Source of the DNA: a virus
DNA: 20,624 nt
Virus record (IMG/VR): IMGVR_UViG_3300030060_003960
Coordinates: 1-20,624 of that record
Strand: one strand, 5' to 3'
Numbering within the stretch: position 1 is the stretch's first letter; each line of letters begins with the position of its first letter. A program made the translations under genes and the position numbers. The notes below the pieces were generated by a model. It was not told the origin of the DNA. It did no database searches and worked only from the letters and a program-made list of their open reading frames with translations. This document shows, piece after piece, positions 2,906 through 17,772 of this stretch.

Positions 2906-3166
2906 CTATTTTATATCCCCTGTTAATTTATATTCTCCCTCATTCATTGTTTCGTAAATTTCCCACTTGCCATTTGTCTTATGCAAAATAGTTTTAAAGC
3001 AACTATCACCACCAACTACTAAGGCAATATCTCCACACCAACTAGGACAATCAGACATATAATTTTCAATGATTGAACAGTTTTGTTTACATAATCTCCC
3101 TTGAAACCAATCATTTCCATAATATTCAGCTAATGATTTTTCAATTTCTGTGTATTCTTTACTCAT
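2906..3166 (-). CDS. Hypothetical cysteine-rich protein (86 aa)
   Basis: An 86-residue protein, MSKEYTEIEKSLAEYYGNDW onward, with four Cys in the centre (CKQNC, CPSWC) and a fifth in DSCF, so metal binding is possible. A strand-like C terminus follows (KWEIYETMNEGEYKL). I do not recognise the family. The start has an AGGAGATATAAA site. Its final residues (YKLTGDIK-stop) are encoded by a near-copy of the leader and ribosome-binding site found in front of the 3185-3547 gene, so the tail may have been acquired by recombination. Confidence 0.7.
   Translation of the reverse strand: MSKEYTEIEKSLAEYYGNDWFQGRLCKQNCSIIENYMSDCPSWCGDIALVVGGDSCFKTILHKTNGKWEIYETMNEGEYKLTGDIK
2909..2932. repeat. Duplicated ribosome-binding-site element, coding copy
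   Basis: 24 bases identical to 3547-3570 except for one base. Here the element lies inside a reading frame and codes for the last residues of the 2906-3166 protein. Confidence 0.8.
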
Positions 3167-3184
3167 TTTATATCTCCTCTTGAT

Positions 3185-3547
3185 CTATATTGTTTTTCTT
3201 CTCGCATGTTTTGTTCTAACTGCTTGTGCTTGTGGATATAATGTTTTGTTAATGTAATAATACCCTAGCTCAAGTTCTTCTTCTGTAAAGCCACATTCAT
3301 GTATAGAGTCATCAGTATAATCTTGCCACCTAGCGTCTGAACATTCATTTGCTTTTTCCCATGCGTCATATTTATCTTTGTATAAATAATAATTATCATA
3401 CTTTTCCCACATTAAAGGATTATCCTCATCATCTGTTCTTATCTCACTTTCAAATGGAATACCATCTAAATATTGTTCATGTGTGTCATTACAAATACAC
3501 TTACAATTCAAATATATTTGCTCAATAATTTCATTCATAGTTTTCAT
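3185..3547 (-). CDS. Hypothetical acidic protein (120 aa)
   Basis: A 120-residue, strongly acidic protein with an aromatic-rich centre (IRTDDEDNPLMWEKYDNYYL) and a basic C-terminal tail (AVRTKHARRKTI). CKCIC near residues 15-20 and two later Cys are present. No family is recognised. It is the first gene after a structured leader of about 160 bases (3548-3709) and has an AGGAGATATAAA ribosome-binding site. A YLDGIPFESE segment resembles WLDEIPFEYE in the 1290-1565 protein. The charge and the ardA neighbourhood would suit a DNA-mimic inhibitor, but that is speculation. Confidence 0.75.
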   Translation of the reverse strand: MKTMNEIIEQIYLNCKCICNDTHEQYLDGIPFESEIRTDDEDNPLMWEKYDNYYLYKDKYDAWEKANECSDARWQDYTDDSIHECGFTEEELELGYYYINKTLYPQAQAVRTKHARRKTI

Positions 3548-4421: not shown

Positions 4422-4563
4422 TTTTCTTCCCCTGTTTTAAGTTATTAATTTCTTGTCTTAAACTGTTGCTACATATTTTTCTAATAATTTCTTTTTTATC
4501 AGAGTCGCTTAGATTTAAGTCGTTCTTAATTTTTTCTAATGATTTTAGTATTGGATCATTCAT
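4408..4563 (-). CDS. Small helical protein between exonuclease and SSB-like genes (51 aa)
   Basis: A 51-residue open frame, MNDPILKSLEKIKNDLNLSD to KQGKKNGIQ, predicted helical and basic at its end. Its ATG overlaps the exonuclease TGA (ATGA) and it overlaps the next start by 14 bases, so translation is probably coupled through all three genes. Upstream GGAGAAAAAGA lies within the exonuclease gene. The family is not recognised; a small accessory factor of the recombination set is possible. Confidence 0.65.
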   Translation of the reverse strand: MNDPILKSLEKIKNDLNLSDSDKKEIIRKICSNSLRQEINNLKQGKKNGIQ

Positions 4564-5231
4564 TCTTTTTCTCCATAAATAAGTTTAATTTTGTGTTCGC
4601 CCTCAAACTTTTTGGGTTTATCTTCAAGTTTGCTATCGTTAATTAAAGCCATTGTATATTCTTCAAGTAATCCCAATAAGTAGTGTTCAAACTCGTAGTT
4701 TCTCTCAATCTCCCATATTCTAGTGCCATTGAAAGACCAACTGACTAGATGAGTCTTGTCTATCTTTATGCCTAAAGAATTGAGTATGTATTGTTGGAGA
4801 GATATCTGAGCTAGATAAACCTTCGCTTTATTCCACTCATGTGGTTTCTTGCCAAGTGAACCACATTTGATTTCTAGCAACAAATTATTGTCTTTATCTG
4901 AATATCTAGCGTCAGGTGTGCAAGATAAATCGACAACAGTATCTCCTTTGAGATTAAAAGCATTTTGCAGAACATAGTTATGCTGATCTTCTAGTATCTC
5001 TGTAGGCATTTTCTTGTTAATCAATATCCATTTAGCTATGCCACTTCGTTCATGTTCAACACCAAAGTCCACATATTTCTGCATAAAATCTCCAATAGGT
5101 TTTTGTTCTCCTTTGCGATCCCATTCAAGCATTTCGTTCCGAGATGTATAAGTTCCGAAACAATAATTTAAAGCTGATGAGCTACGAAGATTATAACGAT
5201 TGACCAAGCTCGACTTCATTTGTGCTTTCAT
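4560..5231 (-). CDS. YqaJ-like exonuclease, PD-(D/E)xK fold
   Basis: A phage recombination exonuclease, expected to resect double-stranded ends so that the annealing protein can load. With residues numbered from an upstream ATG at 5243, Glu64 (GVEHERSG), Asp111 (TPDA), Glu124-x-Lys126 (LLLEIKCG) and a Q-rich helix (LAQISLQQYI, 145-154) follow the YqaJ/lambda-exonuclease order. At about 224 residues it has the expected length. I place the start at ATG 5231 (MKAQMKSS), which is preceded by GGGGGT; the ATG at 5243 has no good site. The gene overlaps the end of the annealing-protein gene by about 40 bases, showing tight coupling. It contacts the small 4408-4563 gene by ATGA. The family call is strong; polarity and partners are inferred. 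Confidence 0.85.
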   Translation of the reverse strand: MKAQMKSSLVNRYNLRSSSALNYCFGTYTSRNEMLEWDRKGEQKPIGDFMQKYVDFGVEHERSGIAKWILINKKMPTEILEDQHNYVLQNAFNLKGDTVVDLSCTPDARYSDKDNNLLLEIKCGSLGKKPHEWNKAKVYLAQISLQQYILNSLGIKIDKTHLVSWSFNGTRIWEIERNYEFEHYLLGLLEEYTMALINDSKLEDKPKKFEGEHKIKLIYGEKE

Positions 5232-5730
5232 TGATACCCCCATTTTTAAGTGCAGACTCTACTGCTTTTTGCTTATCTTTAGCTTTGGCTATCTTTTTAA
5301 CTTCAGGATCATTAATCTCGCCTTTCAGGTTTAGTTCTTCAGGTTTTGTCTGCCCATTGTGGTACAACTGTAAAGATAGACCGAATAATGACATGGTTTT
5401 GACCATACATCTTTGCATATTGTCTTGAATATCATCTGCTCTAGGATTTTCTATTGCATTGTATTTGTTATCATAGACAGGCAACCAACCCTCTTTGTAC
5501 AGTTCTCCGATCTCTATACGACATCTCAATATCATTGTTCCATTGTCATAAGTAAATGGCTCTAACCATTTTACTTGCACTTCTGGATAATAATGATTGA
5601 AGATATGCCAAGCATAAGACCATTTAAGATAGGTATAATTTCCTTTCTGTTCTGTTTTGCCTGTAACATCTACCTTAGATAAGGTTTCAAATACCGATTT
5701 ATAGCTTAATTGGGTTTCTTGGTTATTCAT
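5191..5730 (-). CDS. Single-strand annealing protein, Sak3 family (DUF1071)
   Basis: A RecT/Erf-type annealing protein that pairs complementary single strands during phage recombination. The 179 residues match the Sak3 (DUF1071) pattern: LSKVDVTGKTEQKGNYTYLK at 17-36, then WSYAWHIFNHYYPE, a beta-rich centre (TMILRCRIEI, GWLPVYDNKYNAI), then DIQDNMQRCMVKTMSLFGLS with the conserved Q-R-C-x-V-K helix. The C-terminal 50 residues are Lys- and Glu-rich and variable (AKAKDKQKAVESALKNGG). It starts within the last bases of the 5723-5923 gene (8-base overlap) and is followed by its exonuclease. The pairing of these two enzymes supports both identifications. Confidence 0.9.
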   Translation of the reverse strand: MNNQETQLSYKSVFETLSKVDVTGKTEQKGNYTYLKWSYAWHIFNHYYPEVQVKWLEPFTYDNGTMILRCRIEIGELYKEGWLPVYDNKYNAIENPRADDIQDNMQRCMVKTMSLFGLSLQLYHNGQTKPEELNLKGEINDPEVKKIAKAKDKQKAVESALKNGGINESTNEVELGQSL

Positions 5731-7130: not shown

Positions 7131-7417
7131 ATGGCAAAGAAACCGAATAAAGAAACAAGAGCAAGGTATAAAAAAGCTATTAAATTTGGGTGTGTGGTAT
7201 GCAAAAAGCATTACGGAGTGTATACAGAGCCATGTATTCATCACTTAACAGGGGGAGGAATGGGGTTAAAGTCGAAAGACTTTATCCCTCTTTGATATGC
7301 CATACACATCATCAAGGAGAACAAGGAATACATCATTTAGGTAATAAAAAATGGGAAAAGAAGTTTGGAACACAGGAAGAATTATACAAATGGTATATAG
7401 AAAATGATAGAGATTGA
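7131..7417 (+). pseudogene. Ref-like HNH nuclease interrupted by a frameshift
   Basis: Two overlapping frames together give one RecA-dependent nuclease of the P1 Ref type. Frame one (7131-7295) reads MAKKPNKETRARYKKAI, zinc pair CVVC (21-24), CIHHLTGGGMGLKSKDFIPL, then a TGA. The -1 frame continues at once with CHTHHQGEQGIHHLG, WEKKFGTQEELYKWY and ends at 7417. In the family, IPLC-x-x-HH is continuous, so the halves belong together. Removing five bases (TGATA, 7293-7297) would restore IPL-CHTHH exactly; a -1 ribosomal shift would give an extra LI. It may be a broken gene, a sequencing error or a programmed frameshift. Ref enzymes cut DNA at RecA-made displacement loops. No strong slippery heptamer stands out, which favours mutation or error. 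Homology is confident; function is uncertain. Confidence 0.8.
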
Positions 7418-7613
7418 GAAAAATATACCCATATCTTATCAAAGCAAGTATGATAAATACATACAAGCTATGATTAATATGGGAAAAGGAGAATCATTCG
7501 TTGTAAATGATTATAAAATAGTAGACGCAGTAAGAGGCTTTGGCTGGAGAAAAGGACATAAAGTAAAATTTAGAACGATTGCTAAAGATAAATATAGGAT
7601 TTGGAAACTATGA
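7404..7613 (+). CDS. Small conserved phage protein (69 aa)
   Basis: A 69-residue protein. The pattern YDKYIQAMINMGKGESFVVN, then a helix (VDAVRGFGWRKGHK), then KFRTIAKDKYRIWKL matches a common small phage family with a G-E-S-F turn and a final strand R-I-W (a DUF7303-like pattern, from memory). It overlaps the end of the nuclease frame by 14 bases. Downstream contact is ATGA with the next gene if that gene starts at 7610. Its role is unknown; similar proteins lie among early and replication genes. Confidence 0.7.
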   Translation: MIEIEKNIPISYQSKYDKYIQAMINMGKGESFVVNDYKIVDAVRGFGWRKGHKVKFRTIAKDKYRIWKL

Positions 7614-11524: not shown

Positions 11525-11748
11525 TGTGATAGGGGATTATCTGATCTTGCTTTCATTTCATTAACTTTAGCGTTTAATACTGCTATTTCTGCTTTGTTAA
11601 TCGCAATGTCTGCTGTCAATGGTTTAATATCTACTGTTTGTCTAGCTTCTAATACCTCTACTCTTTGAATTAATTGTCCTTGATAGACAAACAATCCACC
11701 TAGAGTTATAACTAAACCAACAGCTCCTGTTATTACTTTAATATCCAC
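11521..11748 (-). CDS. TM plus coiled-coil protein, i-spanin-like candidate (75 aa)
   Basis: A 75-residue protein starting at a GTG with a strong ribosome-binding site (AAGGAGGATTC). One N-terminal transmembrane helix (VITGAVGLVITLGGLFVYQG, about 5-24) is followed by a coiled coil (QLIQRVEVLEARQTV, INKAEIAVLNAKVNEMKA). That N-in, C-out shape matches inner-membrane spanins and also some holin accessory proteins. It overlaps the end of the 583-residue gene and contacts the holin candidate by ATGA. A 40-residue lipoprotein gene, a possible outer partner, lies at 13486-13608. The function is inferred from architecture. Confidence 0.6.
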   Translation of the reverse strand: MDIKVITGAVGLVITLGGLFVYQGQLIQRVEVLEARQTVDIKPLTADIAINKAEIAVLNAKVNEMKARSDNPLSQ

Positions 11749-13489
11749 GAATCCTCCTTAGATGTTCTTCTGCTCGTATCGTGTTATCTATAGATTCCTG
11801 AAGAATCTTTTGACTTGTTGCCATAGGGTCGTTATATATAATTTGATTTTCAGCATATATATCTCGCAAATCAATATATTCTCTTTGGTCATCATAATTA
11901 CCTCCATCAATAAATAATTGATTATTAAATATATTATTGTTGGTTTTTCCGTAATTGTCTATAGAAAGTGGGCTTTCCATAGCCCTTGCTACAATAAGCG
12001 AAGTAGCAATTAGTCTTTGATCTACCCTTTTAAGTGTTTCATTAACTTTCTTTTCTATAGATTCTATTGAAATAGTTTGAGTATCTGCTCTAGTGTTTCC
12101 TTGACTCCTGCCTTCTTCCACCGATTCATTTCTGCTTTCGATATTTTCTTCGTTTGTAGCAACTGTTTCAGTTCCTCCATTTCCTCGTTCACTATCTGTT
12201 GTTTCTCCTTCTCCGAGAGTTTCATCTACTTCTTCAGAAGCGACTGTAGTTTCTTCTTCAGGTTCAACAGTAGTATTTTCAGTTTGTTCAACAGGTTCAG
12301 GTGTATTTTCTGTGACTGTGCTTTCTCCTGTAGGCTCTGTAGAAACTCTTTCTTCGTTTTCTCTTGGTGCTTCTGCATTTCCTCCTCCTGCTTCAGCTTG
12401 TACGATTGTGCTAGTTTCTTCTCCTCCTCCAACTTCTTGTTGTATAGGCTCTGACTCAATTTCTCTGCTAGAGTTAGGGGTTTCGACGAGGGTCTGCCGT
12501 TCTTCTGCGAAGAACTCTTGTATAACTTCGCCTGTTGCTGTGTTGTTAAAACTTTCTGTTGTTTCAATTCTTTCTTCAAAGCCTTGGACTTCTGCTGAGA
12601 ACGCTTCGATGGCCTTTGGTTCTTCATATACAACCTCCATAGGTATTTCTTCAAAACTCTCAATAGGTGGGAGTTCTGTTAATTCTATTGTTTCTACAGG
12701 CTCAAAAAATACATTAATAATACCTGTATTTATTTCTTCTTTTTTAATTTCTTCAATAAATATTTCTTCAAATATTTGTACTACCATTTCAGGTTCTTCA
12801 AATACCTCAAAAACTATTTCTTCTAAGGGTATAAATTCTACTTTTTCTACTCTACTAGATAATACTTCTTCTACTTCTTGAAATGTAGTTGTTATATGTG
12901 ATGTTTGTATAGCTGATAAAACCTCATCATCATAGGTCATAGTAACAGATATATTATCGAAATTAGGGCCACCAAGATTAGCAGGACTATTGCTGTCAGA
13001 ACCACTAATAAAAATGTTTCCCCTATTAGACCCTGTCCCAGTAAACGAAACGCTATCCGTAAAATCTTGTCCATTAATTCCTGTAACATCTGTTCTCTCC
13101 TGTGTAGTTGTAGCTAGTACATTGCTATCAGAATCTCTAATTTGTAATCGAATTGAAAAGCTATCGGCTGGGCCTGACCCTCCCCAGCAACCTGATACAC
13201 CACACTCTCCATTCTGTACTTCAACAGATGAGTTAAGGGTAATACCATTATTAAGCATAGGTTGTGTAATTGTATTAGAGAATAAATCAAAGGATTGTTC
13301 TATGCTACCACTATCTCCAAACTCAAGATCATGTCCACCTGGGCAACAATCTCCTATTCTTTGTGCATCTCCCTGTAATGTCCAACCTGTAGTTCCATTA
13401 TTAAAATCACCATTAGTAATTAAATTACCAGTTGTTTGACTATCTGCTAAAACCATTAATGGAAAAAATAAAGGAATTAAGTATTTCAT
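11738..13489 (-). CDS. Secreted protein with carbohydrate-binding-like domain and Glu/Thr-rich middle (583 aa)
   Basis: A 583-residue protein with a signal peptide (MKYLIPLFFPLMVLA, cleavage near DSQ). Residues about 20-190 look like a galactose-binding or CBM-type beta sandwich: NLITNGDFNNGTTGWTLQG, DLEFGDSGSIEQSFDL and FDNISVTMTYDDE, the classic G-D-F...G-W...F-D-x-I/V order. Cys pairs CCPGG and CGVSGCWGG suggest folding outside the cytoplasm. Residues about 200-470 are extremely rich in Glu, Thr, Val and Ser. The last 100 are helical and Asn-rich. Similar proteins occur in marine phages, as I recall, without known function. It overlaps the lipoprotein gene by ATGA and the i-spanin candidate by 11 bases. 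Adhesion, host-envelope or virion surface roles are all possible. Confidence 0.75.
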   Translation of the reverse strand: MKYLIPLFFPLMVLADSQTTGNLITNGDFNNGTTGWTLQGDAQRIGDCCPGGHDLEFGDSGSIEQSFDLFSNTITQPMLNNGITLNSSVEVQNGECGVSGCWGGSGPADSFSIRLQIRDSDSNVLATTTQERTDVTGINGQDFTDSVSFTGTGSNRGNIFISGSDSNSPANLGGPNFDNISVTMTYDDEVLSAIQTSHITTTFQEVEEVLSSRVEKVEFIPLEEIVFEVFEEPEMVVQIFEEIFIEEIKKEEINTGIINVFFEPVETIELTELPPIESFEEIPMEVVYEEPKAIEAFSAEVQGFEERIETTESFNNTATGEVIQEFFAEERQTLVETPNSSREIESEPIQQEVGGGEETSTIVQAEAGGGNAEAPRENEERVSTEPTGESTVTENTPEPVEQTENTTVEPEEETTVASEEVDETLGEGETTDSERGNGGTETVATNEENIESRNESVEEGRSQGNTRADTQTISIESIEKKVNETLKRVDQRLIATSLIVARAMESPLSIDNYGKTNNNIFNNQLFIDGGNYDDQREYIDLRDIYAENQIIYNDPMATSQKILQESIDNTIRAEEHLRRIRGY

Positions 13490-14440: not shown

Positions 14441-14872
14441 TTACTTCCTAGTTAAAGAACCACCAAAATATAAACCAATAATTGAGAATATTGTGTGTGA
14501 TTGTAGGTTTGTTATAAAAATTGTATTGCCCTGTTCAAAATATGAGGTTTCATAAGTAGAACCAAATATCCACCAACCACTATCTGCTTCAGTTACGATT
14601 TGATATGCTACATTAACATCAGTAAAGATTGGAGCAACGATTGGTACTACAATAATGCTAAATACACACATTAAAGCTATCCATCTTCTAGTATGTTTAG
14701 TGTGTGGGTCTGATACTGCTCTAGCCTTGTCAGTTTGTTTGGCTGCAAAGTCTGCACGTTGCATTAACATCTTTTGTCTTTCTTGTTCAGCTTGTCCTTT
14801 CTGTGCCATAATAGACATTACACCACCTAGTACAGTAGAGCCAAGCATTGATATAAGTTCCATTGGTATCAT
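14441..14872 (-). CDS. Phage membrane protein, three helices (143 aa)
   Basis: A 143-residue protein. Helix 1 (ELISMLGSTVLGGVMSIMA, 5-23), a charged helical segment (GQAEQERQKMLMQRADFAAK), helix 2 (WIALMCVFSIIVVPIVAPIF, 64-83) and helix 3 near the end (SHTIFSIIGLYFGGSLTRK). Between helices 2 and 3 is an aromatic region (GWWIFGSTYETSYF). Similar proteins in marine phages are annotated as hypothetical or holin-like. A holin or an injection-associated membrane protein would fit. It overlaps the large ejection-protein gene by ATGA. Confidence 0.7.
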   Translation of the reverse strand: MIPMELISMLGSTVLGGVMSIMAQKGQAEQERQKMLMQRADFAAKQTDKARAVSDPHTKHTRRWIALMCVFSIIVVPIVAPIFTDVNVAYQIVTEADSGWWIFGSTYETSYFEQGNTIFITNLQSHTIFSIIGLYFGGSLTRK

Positions 14873-17772
14873 AATAATCCTGGGTTCCTCGCTTCTTTTC
14901 TTAATCTTCTGTTATATTTTTCTGCTCCTCCACCGAACCAATTATAAATTATAGGTCCTGCTCCAGGAACTACTCTTAAAATAGAAGCAAAATCTTCTGG
15001 GCTTGTTTTTCTGTATCCACCTTTTTGAAATATAGGACCTAATCCTTCTATTACTCCAGTTGCTGCTGCATCAAGAACAGGCATGGCAGGAGCAATAGTT
15101 TGCATAAAAAATTCAGTTAATTTTCCTTGTTCAATATATTTGCTAGTATTGTATTCATTTATACCATAAACACCCAAAAGAGAATATACTGCTTGTTTTG
15201 GTAACATTTCTGGTCTTATATCTCTGCCAGTAATCATATCTTTTACTAGCTTAGTTCCTAAGTTAAAAGTTGTAAGGTATGCTGCTAATGCAGTTGCGTT
15301 TTTTGTAGCTTGTAGTTTGTTACCTTTTTTCCATTCTTGAACTACCTTTCTTCTTGCAACATCTATTTGCTTAAGAGTAAATGATTTTAACATATAAAAA
15401 AGTCTACCATTTGGGTTGTCAAGATATCCTTGTGGCATTTCAGATAAAGTTATAGGTTGCACATCTGATAATTCATTAAAGGCATGAAACTTTGTGTTGT
15501 CTGTAACTTTACCTGCTTTAAGATCAGCTACAATATCATCGAGTAGTTTTGGTTGAAAACCATATAACTCTTTATGTTGTTTTCTAAATGCTGCTTCTCC
15601 TTTTGGAGTTTTGACTTGGTTTATTGCTTTTTTAAAAGATGCGTTCATAAGAGTTTCTTTACCTAATCTATCTACTGTTCTAAAACCAGTAATATCGAAA
15701 AGAAAATTAAGTGCTTTTACAGTGCCTCTTACATTACCTTCTGCAAACTCTTTCGACATATTTTCTATTCCAACATCAATAAGTTTTATGTCTTTTGTTC
15801 CAAACAATGAAGCAAAAGTATTTCTAAATCCATGTAAAGCACCAGAGTTACCTAAATCACCAAACTGTGTTATAGCTGAATATGGGTTTGCAATAGTGCC
15901 CATGTACCCTAAATCTCTTAGAGTGCCAACACCTTTTCTCATTTGTTTGTCACCACTTATAAATCTACTCTGTAACAAGTCTACTAACTGGTCTTCATTT
16001 AATGGATTTAGTCTACCTGCTGCTTTTTCTGATTCGATAATTGCCCCTATAGAATCTTTTATATTAAAAACACCATCTTTTGTTTTTACAGAATTTCTTC
16101 CAAAAAATTTATATTTTTCTATTTTATCTACAGCACCCCTAATATAAAGAGACAAAGCATCAGCAGGATCTTCGTAAAACTCTGATACTTGTTTTTCTGT
16201 TAAATCATCAACTTTTCTTTGTTTTGCGAATCTCGGAACTCTATCTGTTGTTAATCCAAAACCTCTTACATATTGGTTAGCTACCAATGATCTTTCTGCT
16301 AATGATAAATCTTTTGCCGAATCTAATCCTAACCTTTTTGCATATTGATTTTCCATTTCAGTTAATCTAGTTAAATCTTTAATTCCTAAAGAATCTCTAA
16401 ACTTTTCTATATCTTTGACTTGTCTAGGAAAATAATCATCTAGTTTTTGAAAAAATATCCCTGCTTTTTGTGATTCTCCATAAAGTTCTTCTAATGTATT
16501 TTTTACAACATTAAAATTTTCTTTCATTGGTTCACTCATATATGATGTAGCTTCATTAAATTTTCCATTATATAAACTTCTTGTTAGTTTTACTTTATCT
16601 ACAGGATTCATTTTCCTTAAATCATCAACAAATGGTTTAACTTTTTTTAAAGTATTTGCAGTATTAGTGTGTAATTTGTATTCAAAATGTCTTAGTTTGC
16701 CACCTACTGCTTCTGATATATTTCTTATTCTAGTTGATAAAGTTCCTAGTAAATTGTCTATTGCCCCAGATTTTACTCGTGATGTTGCACTATCATTAAC
16801 TACAGAATCATTTGCAATTTTAGATGCTTGTGATTGAGTTGGTGGAATTTTAAGTTGTTTTCCTGTTCTTTGTATTGCTTTTGTTAATTTTTTATTATCT
16901 ATTTTTTGAACTAAATTATTCATAGCTTCGTTTGGACTAAATCCATTTTTTATATCTTGGGCTATAATTTGTTCTGCTTCCTCTATTGTTTTTAAATCAG
17001 ATTTAGCTTTTACTTTTTTTACACCTACTCCTATTCCTTTAGCAAGACCATATCCTAGTGCTCCTCCACCTGCTCCAAACGCACCATATTCTAATGCTTT
17101 TTGTCCATCTATTTCTCCTGTAGTAGCTAAGTCTTCAAGCACACTATACCCACTACCTAAAGCTGCTGATACTCCCATAACTCTTGGTAGTGTTGTACCT
17201 GGAGCAATAGCTGTAGTAGGATCAGCTATTATACCTACTACTTCTCCTGCTGCCCCTGCAACACTTTCAGGGTTTACCTCAAAATACTCTCCATATTCTT
17301 CTACGAGCCCTCTTTCTCTTGCTCTTTCTATCATTTCCCTGCGTTCATCTGTACTAGCTTCCATAAAGCCTTTACCATAAAGAGTTTCTGGTGAAAAATA
17401 TTGAAAACCATTTTCAAAATCAAAACTAAATCTGCCTAATGGCGTTTTTGCTTCTAAAATATCTGAACCTAAAGCAACTCCACCTTGTGCTTTATCATAA
17501 CGATATACAAATTGTTGATATGCACTATCTTTTCCTGTTTTTACAAGTTTTTTATCTACAATCCTATCACCTGGCTTCGCCTTTAGCATTTGTAATTTAG
17601 GCGATAAGTTTATTTTTTCTTCTGTAATTTCTTCACCCAAATCCATTCTGTCGCCCTCCTCAGAAAAATTCCTGATAAGTTTGCCATCTTTAATTTCATC
17701 TCCAGGTAGTGCTGCTAACTCCCTTAATCTAGGGGAGCTTTGTATTATTTCTAATGTAAGCTGCTCCGACAT
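14869..17772 (-). CDS. Large internal virion / DNA-ejection protein (967 aa)
   Basis: At 967 residues this is the largest product of the window. Two related segments start it (SPRLRELAALPGDEIKDGKL, 13-32; SPKLQMLKAKPGDRIVDKKL, 57-76). Residues about 230-255 are Gly-rich and hydrophobic (YGAFGAGGGALGYGLAKGIG), then long charged helical regions follow to the end, with one hydrophobic patch near the C terminus (ATALAAYLTTFNLGTKLV). Its size, helical content, place after tail genes and small neighbours fit internal core or ejection proteins of podoviruses (compare T7 gp15/gp16), which form a channel through the envelope. No lytic transglycosylase motif is visible. Assignment is by architecture and position. 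Confidence 0.7.
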   Translation of the reverse strand: MSEQLTLEIIQSSPRLRELAALPGDEIKDGKLIRNFSEEGDRMDLGEEITEEKINLSPKLQMLKAKPGDRIVDKKLVKTGKDSAYQQFVYRYDKAQGGVALGSDILEAKTPLGRFSFDFENGFQYFSPETLYGKGFMEASTDERREMIERARERGLVEEYGEYFEVNPESVAGAAGEVVGIIADPTTAIAPGTTLPRVMGVSAALGSGYSVLEDLATTGEIDGQKALEYGAFGAGGGALGYGLAKGIGVGVKKVKAKSDLKTIEEAEQIIAQDIKNGFSPNEAMNNLVQKIDNKKLTKAIQRTGKQLKIPPTQSQASKIANDSVVNDSATSRVKSGAIDNLLGTLSTRIRNISEAVGGKLRHFEYKLHTNTANTLKKVKPFVDDLRKMNPVDKVKLTRSLYNGKFNEATSYMSEPMKENFNVVKNTLEELYGESQKAGIFFQKLDDYFPRQVKDIEKFRDSLGIKDLTRLTEMENQYAKRLGLDSAKDLSLAERSLVANQYVRGFGLTTDRVPRFAKQRKVDDLTEKQVSEFYEDPADALSLYIRGAVDKIEKYKFFGRNSVKTKDGVFNIKDSIGAIIESEKAAGRLNPLNEDQLVDLLQSRFISGDKQMRKGVGTLRDLGYMGTIANPYSAITQFGDLGNSGALHGFRNTFASLFGTKDIKLIDVGIENMSKEFAEGNVRGTVKALNFLFDITGFRTVDRLGKETLMNASFKKAINQVKTPKGEAAFRKQHKELYGFQPKLLDDIVADLKAGKVTDNTKFHAFNELSDVQPITLSEMPQGYLDNPNGRLFYMLKSFTLKQIDVARRKVVQEWKKGNKLQATKNATALAAYLTTFNLGTKLVKDMITGRDIRPEMLPKQAVYSLLGVYGINEYNTSKYIEQGKLTEFFMQTIAPAMPVLDAAATGVIEGLGPIFQKGGYRKTSPEDFASILRVVPGAGPIIYNWFGGGAEKYNRRLRKEARNPGLL

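Follow-up and report, generated by a model that had tools for sequence, protein, structure and literature searches.

The window analysed here (the whole stretch of 20,624 bases of an IMG/VR virus record, 32% GC) contains a Ref-like HNH nuclease gene at 7131–7417 that is divided between two reading frames. The N-terminal half holds two zinc cysteines (FGCVVC) and the first HNH histidines (IHH), and ends at a TGA (7293–7295) that sits directly 3′ of the Leu codon of the IPL/C motif; the −1 frame reads ICHTHHQGEQGIHHLGNKKWEKKFGTQEELYKWYIENDRD (ICHTHHQG... onward) as far as TGA 7415–7417. The initial annotation had described a Ref-like nuclease with a TGA at the position of the family's IPLC and a −1 frame in which CHTHH resumes at once, and both descriptions agree with the features listed below, in which types a to e are stop-bearing variants of the gene (see below).

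7131–7295, + strand: N-terminal half, 54 aa, from ATG 7131 to ...DFIPL and then TGA; frame 0 reads MAKKPNKETRARYKKAIKFGCVVCKKHYGVYTEPCIHHLTGGGMGLKSKDFIPL
7251–7258, + strand: G-rich Shine-Dalgarno (SD)-like run GGGGGAGG, codons GGG GGA GG
7251–7295, + strand: conserved pre-stop stretch, GGGMGLKSKDFIPL followed by the stop
7262–7289, + strand: predicted hairpin GGGGUUAAAGUC-GAAA-GACUUUAUCCCU, its 3′ end beside the CTT take-off codon
7290–7292, + strand: CTT (Leu), proposed take-off codon; CTG in type d
7292–7294, + strand: TTG overlapping the stop (TTGA), the start that reinitiation would need; replaced by GTG in type d and by TTA in type c, and not in frame in type e
7293–7297, + strand: extra bases TGATA (the TGA stop 7293–7295 plus TA), missing from intact alleles by comparison with the family
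7295–7297, + strand: ATA, putative landing codon adjoining the TGC resume codon; CTA in type e
7298–7417, + strand: C-terminal half in the −1 frame, CHTHHQGEQGIHHLGNKKWEKKFGTQEELYKWYIENDRD followed by the closing TGA (7415–7417), with the third zinc Cys and the catalytic His of the HNH motif
7404–7613, + strand: next gene, 69 aa, with an ATG that overlaps the 3′ end of the C-terminal half

Because of this last overlap, ribosomes finishing the C-terminal half would end at the start of the next gene. Recombination genes lie near the nuclease gene, encoding a Sak-like annealing protein (5191–5730) and a RecE-like exonuclease (4560–5243).

The joined protein matches RecA_dep_nuc (PF16786) and DUF968 (E 6e-5) and PHROG 1588 (E 4e-17), whereas the first half alone gives a weak profile match and the second ORF alone gives none. 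The PF16786 match scores 23.6 bits against a curated cut-off of 26.9, and by its sequence the nuclease is Ref-like and is not filed as Ref. An AF2 model of an intact relative (L009, pLDDT 88) aligns with PDB 3plw over 92 residues (Z 11.4, rmsd 2.7), a structure also found by profile search (E 9e-6), and the modelled protein has the HNH beta-beta-alpha core with zinc as in 3plw. Ten residues are invariant in 27 relatives (G21, C22, C25, H38, H39, G44, L55, C56, H59 and H60); the CxxC ... HH ... CxxHH residues are all present in the window, divided between the two frames. The split falls between strand 52–56 and helix 57–60 of the L009 model, within the zinc and active site, and on this model neither half alone can be the enzyme.

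Ref of phage P1 (PF16786, PDB 3plw) and Gp16 of phage PhiNM1 share the HNH fold and the zinc and catalytic residues with the window nuclease, and each is a phage gene near recombination genes, as in the window. Unlike Ref and Gp16, the gene is interrupted in the window-type phages; the nuclease also lacks the 76-residue charged N-terminal arm of Ref, which is a RecA-dependent nuclease. Gp16 mutants of the zinc residues C148, C181 and H184 lose growth inhibition, with contributions from H185 and H189, and overexpressed Gp16 inhibits its host (PMC12817073). By motif, the counterparts of these residues here would be a Cys in the first half and, in the second half, C56, H59 and H60. An indel or added residue between L and C is never seen in the intact relatives and the split lies inside the zinc and active site, so extra residues at L/C are likely to be harmful and exact restoration of the motif is favoured.

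Relatives were collected by a scan of IMG/VR (73 viral contigs) and the set was then enlarged by DNA-pattern scans. Nearly all have an unbroken gene that reads [IL][PG]LC in one frame; in 8 of the first 73, however, the match length is not a multiple of three, and every break is at one point. In the enlarged set a stop is present at the identical point in 18 contigs (the window and 17 others, from many metagenomes), representing at least nine distinct haplotypes, and about 80 distinct relatives have an intact gene. The source phages of the stop-bearing gene are uncultured and mostly marine. Five types are present: type a (CTT-TGATA-TGC) in the window, L049 and L057; type b (CTT-TGATA-TG[CT]) in L058–L061; type c (CTT-TAATA-TGC) in L063 and L064; type d (CTG-TGATA-TGT) in L091 and L098; and type e (CTT-TGACTA-TGC) in L199–L205, with three haplotypes. 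Thus a five-base insert (TGATA or TAATA) that changes the frame is found in 11 contigs including the window, and a six-base insert (TGACTA) that does not is found in seven, the downstream half of type e staying in the original frame behind an in-frame TGA. All types follow one pattern, a CTN codon, a stop, and NTA before TGY, and the occurrence of this pattern in inserts of both 5 nt (a–d) and 6 nt (e) means that the stop and the resumption point are kept rather than the frame.

The window is a metagenomic contig and a sequencing or assembly error could in principle produce such a split, as the initial annotation allowed. Nothing else favours this explanation, and the same insert in independent assemblies from many metagenomes, the 17 other contigs among them, with silent differences around it, makes it extremely improbable; by these comparisons the conserved stop is real and not an artefact. 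Stop-bearing copies were sought in bacterial genomes and none was found, and cultured phages have a continuous match and an annotated gene, with no interruption among the matches listed. The sole other break seen is in L068 (3001–3251), where a 13-nt deletion takes out the PLCHT part of an otherwise intact allele.

On a tree of the core (108 columns), one common origin for the stop-bearing cores is not rejected (p-AU 0.56), but a tree of the first half rejects one clade for the stop-bearing rows (p 0.011), which places them in different backgrounds. Two nearly identical phages (L010:242–1140 and L061:1–900) differ mainly in about 100–150 bp around the stop site, L010 having an intact allele and L061 a stop allele, with the replacement centred on the site. 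These sequences indicate that core alleles are exchanged between gene backgrounds, such that the stop-bearing lineages number only three to four and are in part mosaics, and the intact allele in a near-identical phage shows that the recoded form is not essential. An intact copy in L009 (806–1093) seems to combine an upstream tract like that of L007 with a downstream tract of type b.

Selection was assessed from codon counts between the stop-bearing types, with binomial p values. Synonymous divergence between types is saturated, and the downstream half, which is free of stops in the stop-bearing types, changes mainly at synonymous sites. For the whole downstream half the a–d pair gives S 17.3/17.5 against N 12.7/93.5 (p 3e-7), with p 8e-6 for b–d and p 0.003 for the type e pair L199–L204. 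Selection is also apparent within type b (L059–L061, p 0.01) and for a–c (p 0.03), comparisons in which the copies certainly diverged after the stop arose. In the first 16 downstream codons alone, a–d gives S 9.0/8.7 and N 1.0/39.3 (p 2e-6), a–b p 2e-4 and b–d p 5e-5. The silent differences between a and d that lie closest to the insert are CTT/CTG, one base away on its upstream side, and TGC/TGT, immediately after it, so that a recent short-tract transfer of the insert is a poor explanation for its presence in both.

Upstream of the stop, the last 14 residues (GGGMG[LM]KS[KE]DFIPL) differ at 0–2 of 14 positions between types, although the first 35 residues differ by 31–60%; intact pairs of comparable background divergence differ by a mean of 43% across the same 14 residues. 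The nucleotides of this stretch are also conserved, most strongly between a and e, and synonymous divergence is low for a–e and b–e3. Purifying selection downstream together with the near-invariant 14 residues upstream of the stop argue that both halves are very probably translated and used, in which case they are either joined or made as two chains.

It is also conceivable that the allele is non-functional, an old insert having broken the gene and the broken core having spread by phage recombination, either by resisting cutting or because loss of the nuclease is tolerated. The swapping of cores between backgrounds, the intact twin of L061 (L010), the rejection of a single stop-bearing clade by the first-half tree, and the L068 deletion in the same stretch all fit such a history. 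It is nonetheless unlikely, as the downstream half is stop-free and under purifying selection within and between types, and intact copies conserve the pre-stop stretch less well. Moreover, synonymous divergence beside the insert is as high as in the rest of the downstream half, which excludes a very recent spread of one broken copy for a–d, a–e and b–d. The same observations dispose of the fresh breakage considered in the initial annotation, given that the stop is conserved in relatives and selection has acted downstream across saturated synonymous divergence; the orthologue comparison proposed there finds the shift conserved and refutes simple decay.

The pre-stop stretch contains a predicted hairpin (7262–7289) whose energy is notable against protein-preserving codon shuffles in types a (p 0.001), b (p 0.017) and e (p 0.001–0.015); in type d it is weak alone (p 0.14), and the whole 45 nt gives p 0.03. 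No compensatory change was found among its pairs, 8 of 12 of which are invariant, and the hairpin is therefore suggestive only. Downstream of the stop, no stimulatory structure common to all types was found: CUUUGAU could pair with AUCAAGG in the window and in type b, type d lacks this pairing, z-scores are not notable, and a downstream stem-loop is therefore rejected. Intact alleles of another clade (L020, gene at 3001–3270, L080 and L083) have no stop, yet the stretch before PLC is predicted to fold there into very strong hairpins as well (−18 to −21 kcal/mol; p of 0.003 or less against codon shuffles).

The position of GGGGGAGG is G-rich in every stop-bearing type and encodes Gly-Ala-Gly in most intact relatives. 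In types a and b its SD energy, −11 to −13 kcal/mol, ranks with about the strongest found before any window gene, but SD strength alone is ordinary given the Gly-Gly-Gly residues. The arrangement would suit a two-chain nuclease, in which translation stops at IPL, the second half is restarted at TTG or GTG (or ATA), and the halves assemble into one enzyme. In the window the SD-like run ends at 7258, the hairpin occupies 7262–7289 and TTG begins at 7292, so that hairpin formation would bring the SD to about 5 nt from the start. T4 genes 38 and 25 have a similar layout of a strong SD, a hairpin and a start, in which the hairpin shortens the spacing from 22 to 5 nt and from 27 to 11 nt, respectively (PMC3014915). 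Unlike these genes, the start is not kept here: types a, b and d have a start in the downstream frame, TTA stands in its place in type c, and in type e the first in-frame start is the ATG within CHMHH, with loss of the zinc Cys. ATG is used at this position in no type though it is one base change away, and two separate peptides would be needed to build the zinc site. Production of the nuclease as two chains is thus distinctly unlikely.

Joining of the halves into one chain by some form of recoding is the likelier outcome, and of the three options listed in the initial annotation (breakage, error, or a ribosome that shifts or skips) the last is the best supported, a skip being favoured over a fixed frameshift by the six-base insert of type e. 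We infer that the nuclease may be made by a short programmed ribosomal bypass, or 'stop hop', an assignment that we regard as somewhat short of an even call but that is the simplest single mechanism covering all five types. The stop in the A site would stall the ribosome with peptidyl-tRNA(Leu) on CUU or CUG; the tRNA would release and the mRNA move by 5 nt in types a–d, landing on AUA, or, in type e (CUU-UGA-CUA), by 6 nt to land on CUA; and reading would resume at UGC (UGY), behind the NUA codon. The product would be IPLC[H/P][T/M]HH, as in the intact relatives, with the expected junction peptide FIPLCHTHHQGEQGIHH. Take-off would presumably be driven by the hairpin re-forming behind the ribosome and by the conserved nascent peptide. 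Most ribosomes would end at the 54-aa product and little full-length nuclease would be made, a low dosage that is plausible because Ref-like nucleases may harm the host cell.

The putative landing codon CUA of type e pairs fully with tRNA-Leu, and AUA of types a–d pairs at two of three positions. A phage tRNA able to decode the stop was looked for and rejected: one tRNA-Asn is the sole tRNA across the window and ten loci that have stop-bearing alleles. The imperfect landing codon in the window's own type, the small number of lineages, and the recombination among them are the weak points of a bypass. Imperfect landing codons are known from yeast mitochondria (PMC5009743).

Other forms of recoding would yield one chain with extra residues, in types a–d through either a −1 slip (at CCT, which follows a C) or a +2 slip from CUU to UUG, and in type e through simple UGA readthrough. 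The selection data are fitted equally well by these; the G-to-A change of type c is silent in frame 0 (stop to stop) and in the −1 frame (Leu to Leu), an upstream −1-frame stop in type d would confine any −1 slip to the last few pre-stop codons, and +2 re-pairing on UUG or UUA is good in types a–c. Two mechanisms would be required, however, one for each insert length (5 nt and 6 nt), and the presence of both lengths at one point argues against a fixed −1 slip. There is no in-frame X XXY YYZ heptamer in GAC TTT ATC CCT CTT TGA, and one to three residues would be added between L and C where the intact relatives have none. The claim in the initial annotation that removing TGATA recreates IPL-CHTHH accordingly holds for a five-base skip but not for a −1 slip, which adds SLI, LI or I. 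We consider recoding of these kinds rather unlikely.

Several further candidates were rejected. Type e resembles the prfB (RF2) +1 frameshift site CUU UGA C in having CUUUGAC and an upstream G-rich SD-like run, but the SD is 3 nt away in prfB and about 34 nt away here, and the +1 frame is short, stopping after about 15–35 unconserved residues. An alternative code with TGA as sense could not restore the frame across 5 nt. Origin of the insert by template switching on CATCATCAAGG suits type a but not type d.

A bypass at this site would have much in common with that of T4 gene 60, in which the 5′ stem-loop acts as a motor, a stop lies beside the take-off codon, and there is a nascent-peptide signal (PMC5009743). 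A stop lies directly 3′ of the take-off codon in all 18 contigs here, a 5′ stem-loop is predicted, a nascent-peptide stretch is conserved, and, as for gene 60, the interruption is missing from most relatives of the gene. The two differ in that the gap is 50 nt in gene 60 and 5–6 nt here, that type e alone has a landing codon for the same amino acid as the take-off codon, and that a take-off stem-loop and a downstream SD are not evident in the window family, which is known from sequence data. Stop hops have been described in synthetic constructs, and a 2016 review knew of no natural in-frame example (PMC5009743). Their layout, with matched codons flanking a stop and 9 nt read as one amino acid, is exactly that of type e (CUU-UGA-CUA); in contrast, the window family is natural and conserved, and in the window's own type the stretch is 5 nt and the landing codon a poor match. 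We propose, still more tentatively, a natural and conserved stop hop, performed by the ribosomes of uncultured and mostly marine bacteria, which would pass over 5 or 6 nt including a stop.

Natural programmed bypassing so far rests almost entirely on T4 gene 60 and yeast mitochondria. If the proposal is correct, these sites would be among the very few natural bypass sites in bacterial systems beside T4 gene 60, and type e would supply a natural example of an in-frame stop hop between matched codons, a kind not known in the 2016 review. With the natural variants (5 or 6 nt, UGA or UAA, CUU or CUG take-off), and with intact alleles to serve as controls, one could test directly what landing-codon pairing, the nascent peptide and the 5′ hairpin each contribute. 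There is also a warning for annotation: gene finders treat genes of this sort as broken or split, and would misread 18 of about 100 contigs of this family.

No DNA match to the window's phage was found among cultured phages, and two of its proteins had no protein match: the 967-aa protein (14869–17772) and the RecE-like exonuclease (− strand) gave no tblastn match in 50,697 phage records. By this search, the phage group of the window has no cultured member in those records. Elsewhere in the window, a repetitive Glu/Thr-rich 583-aa gene (11738–13489, − strand) leaves long open frames on both strands, with ORFs inside it at 12312–12881 (+ strand) and 12226–12663 (− strand).
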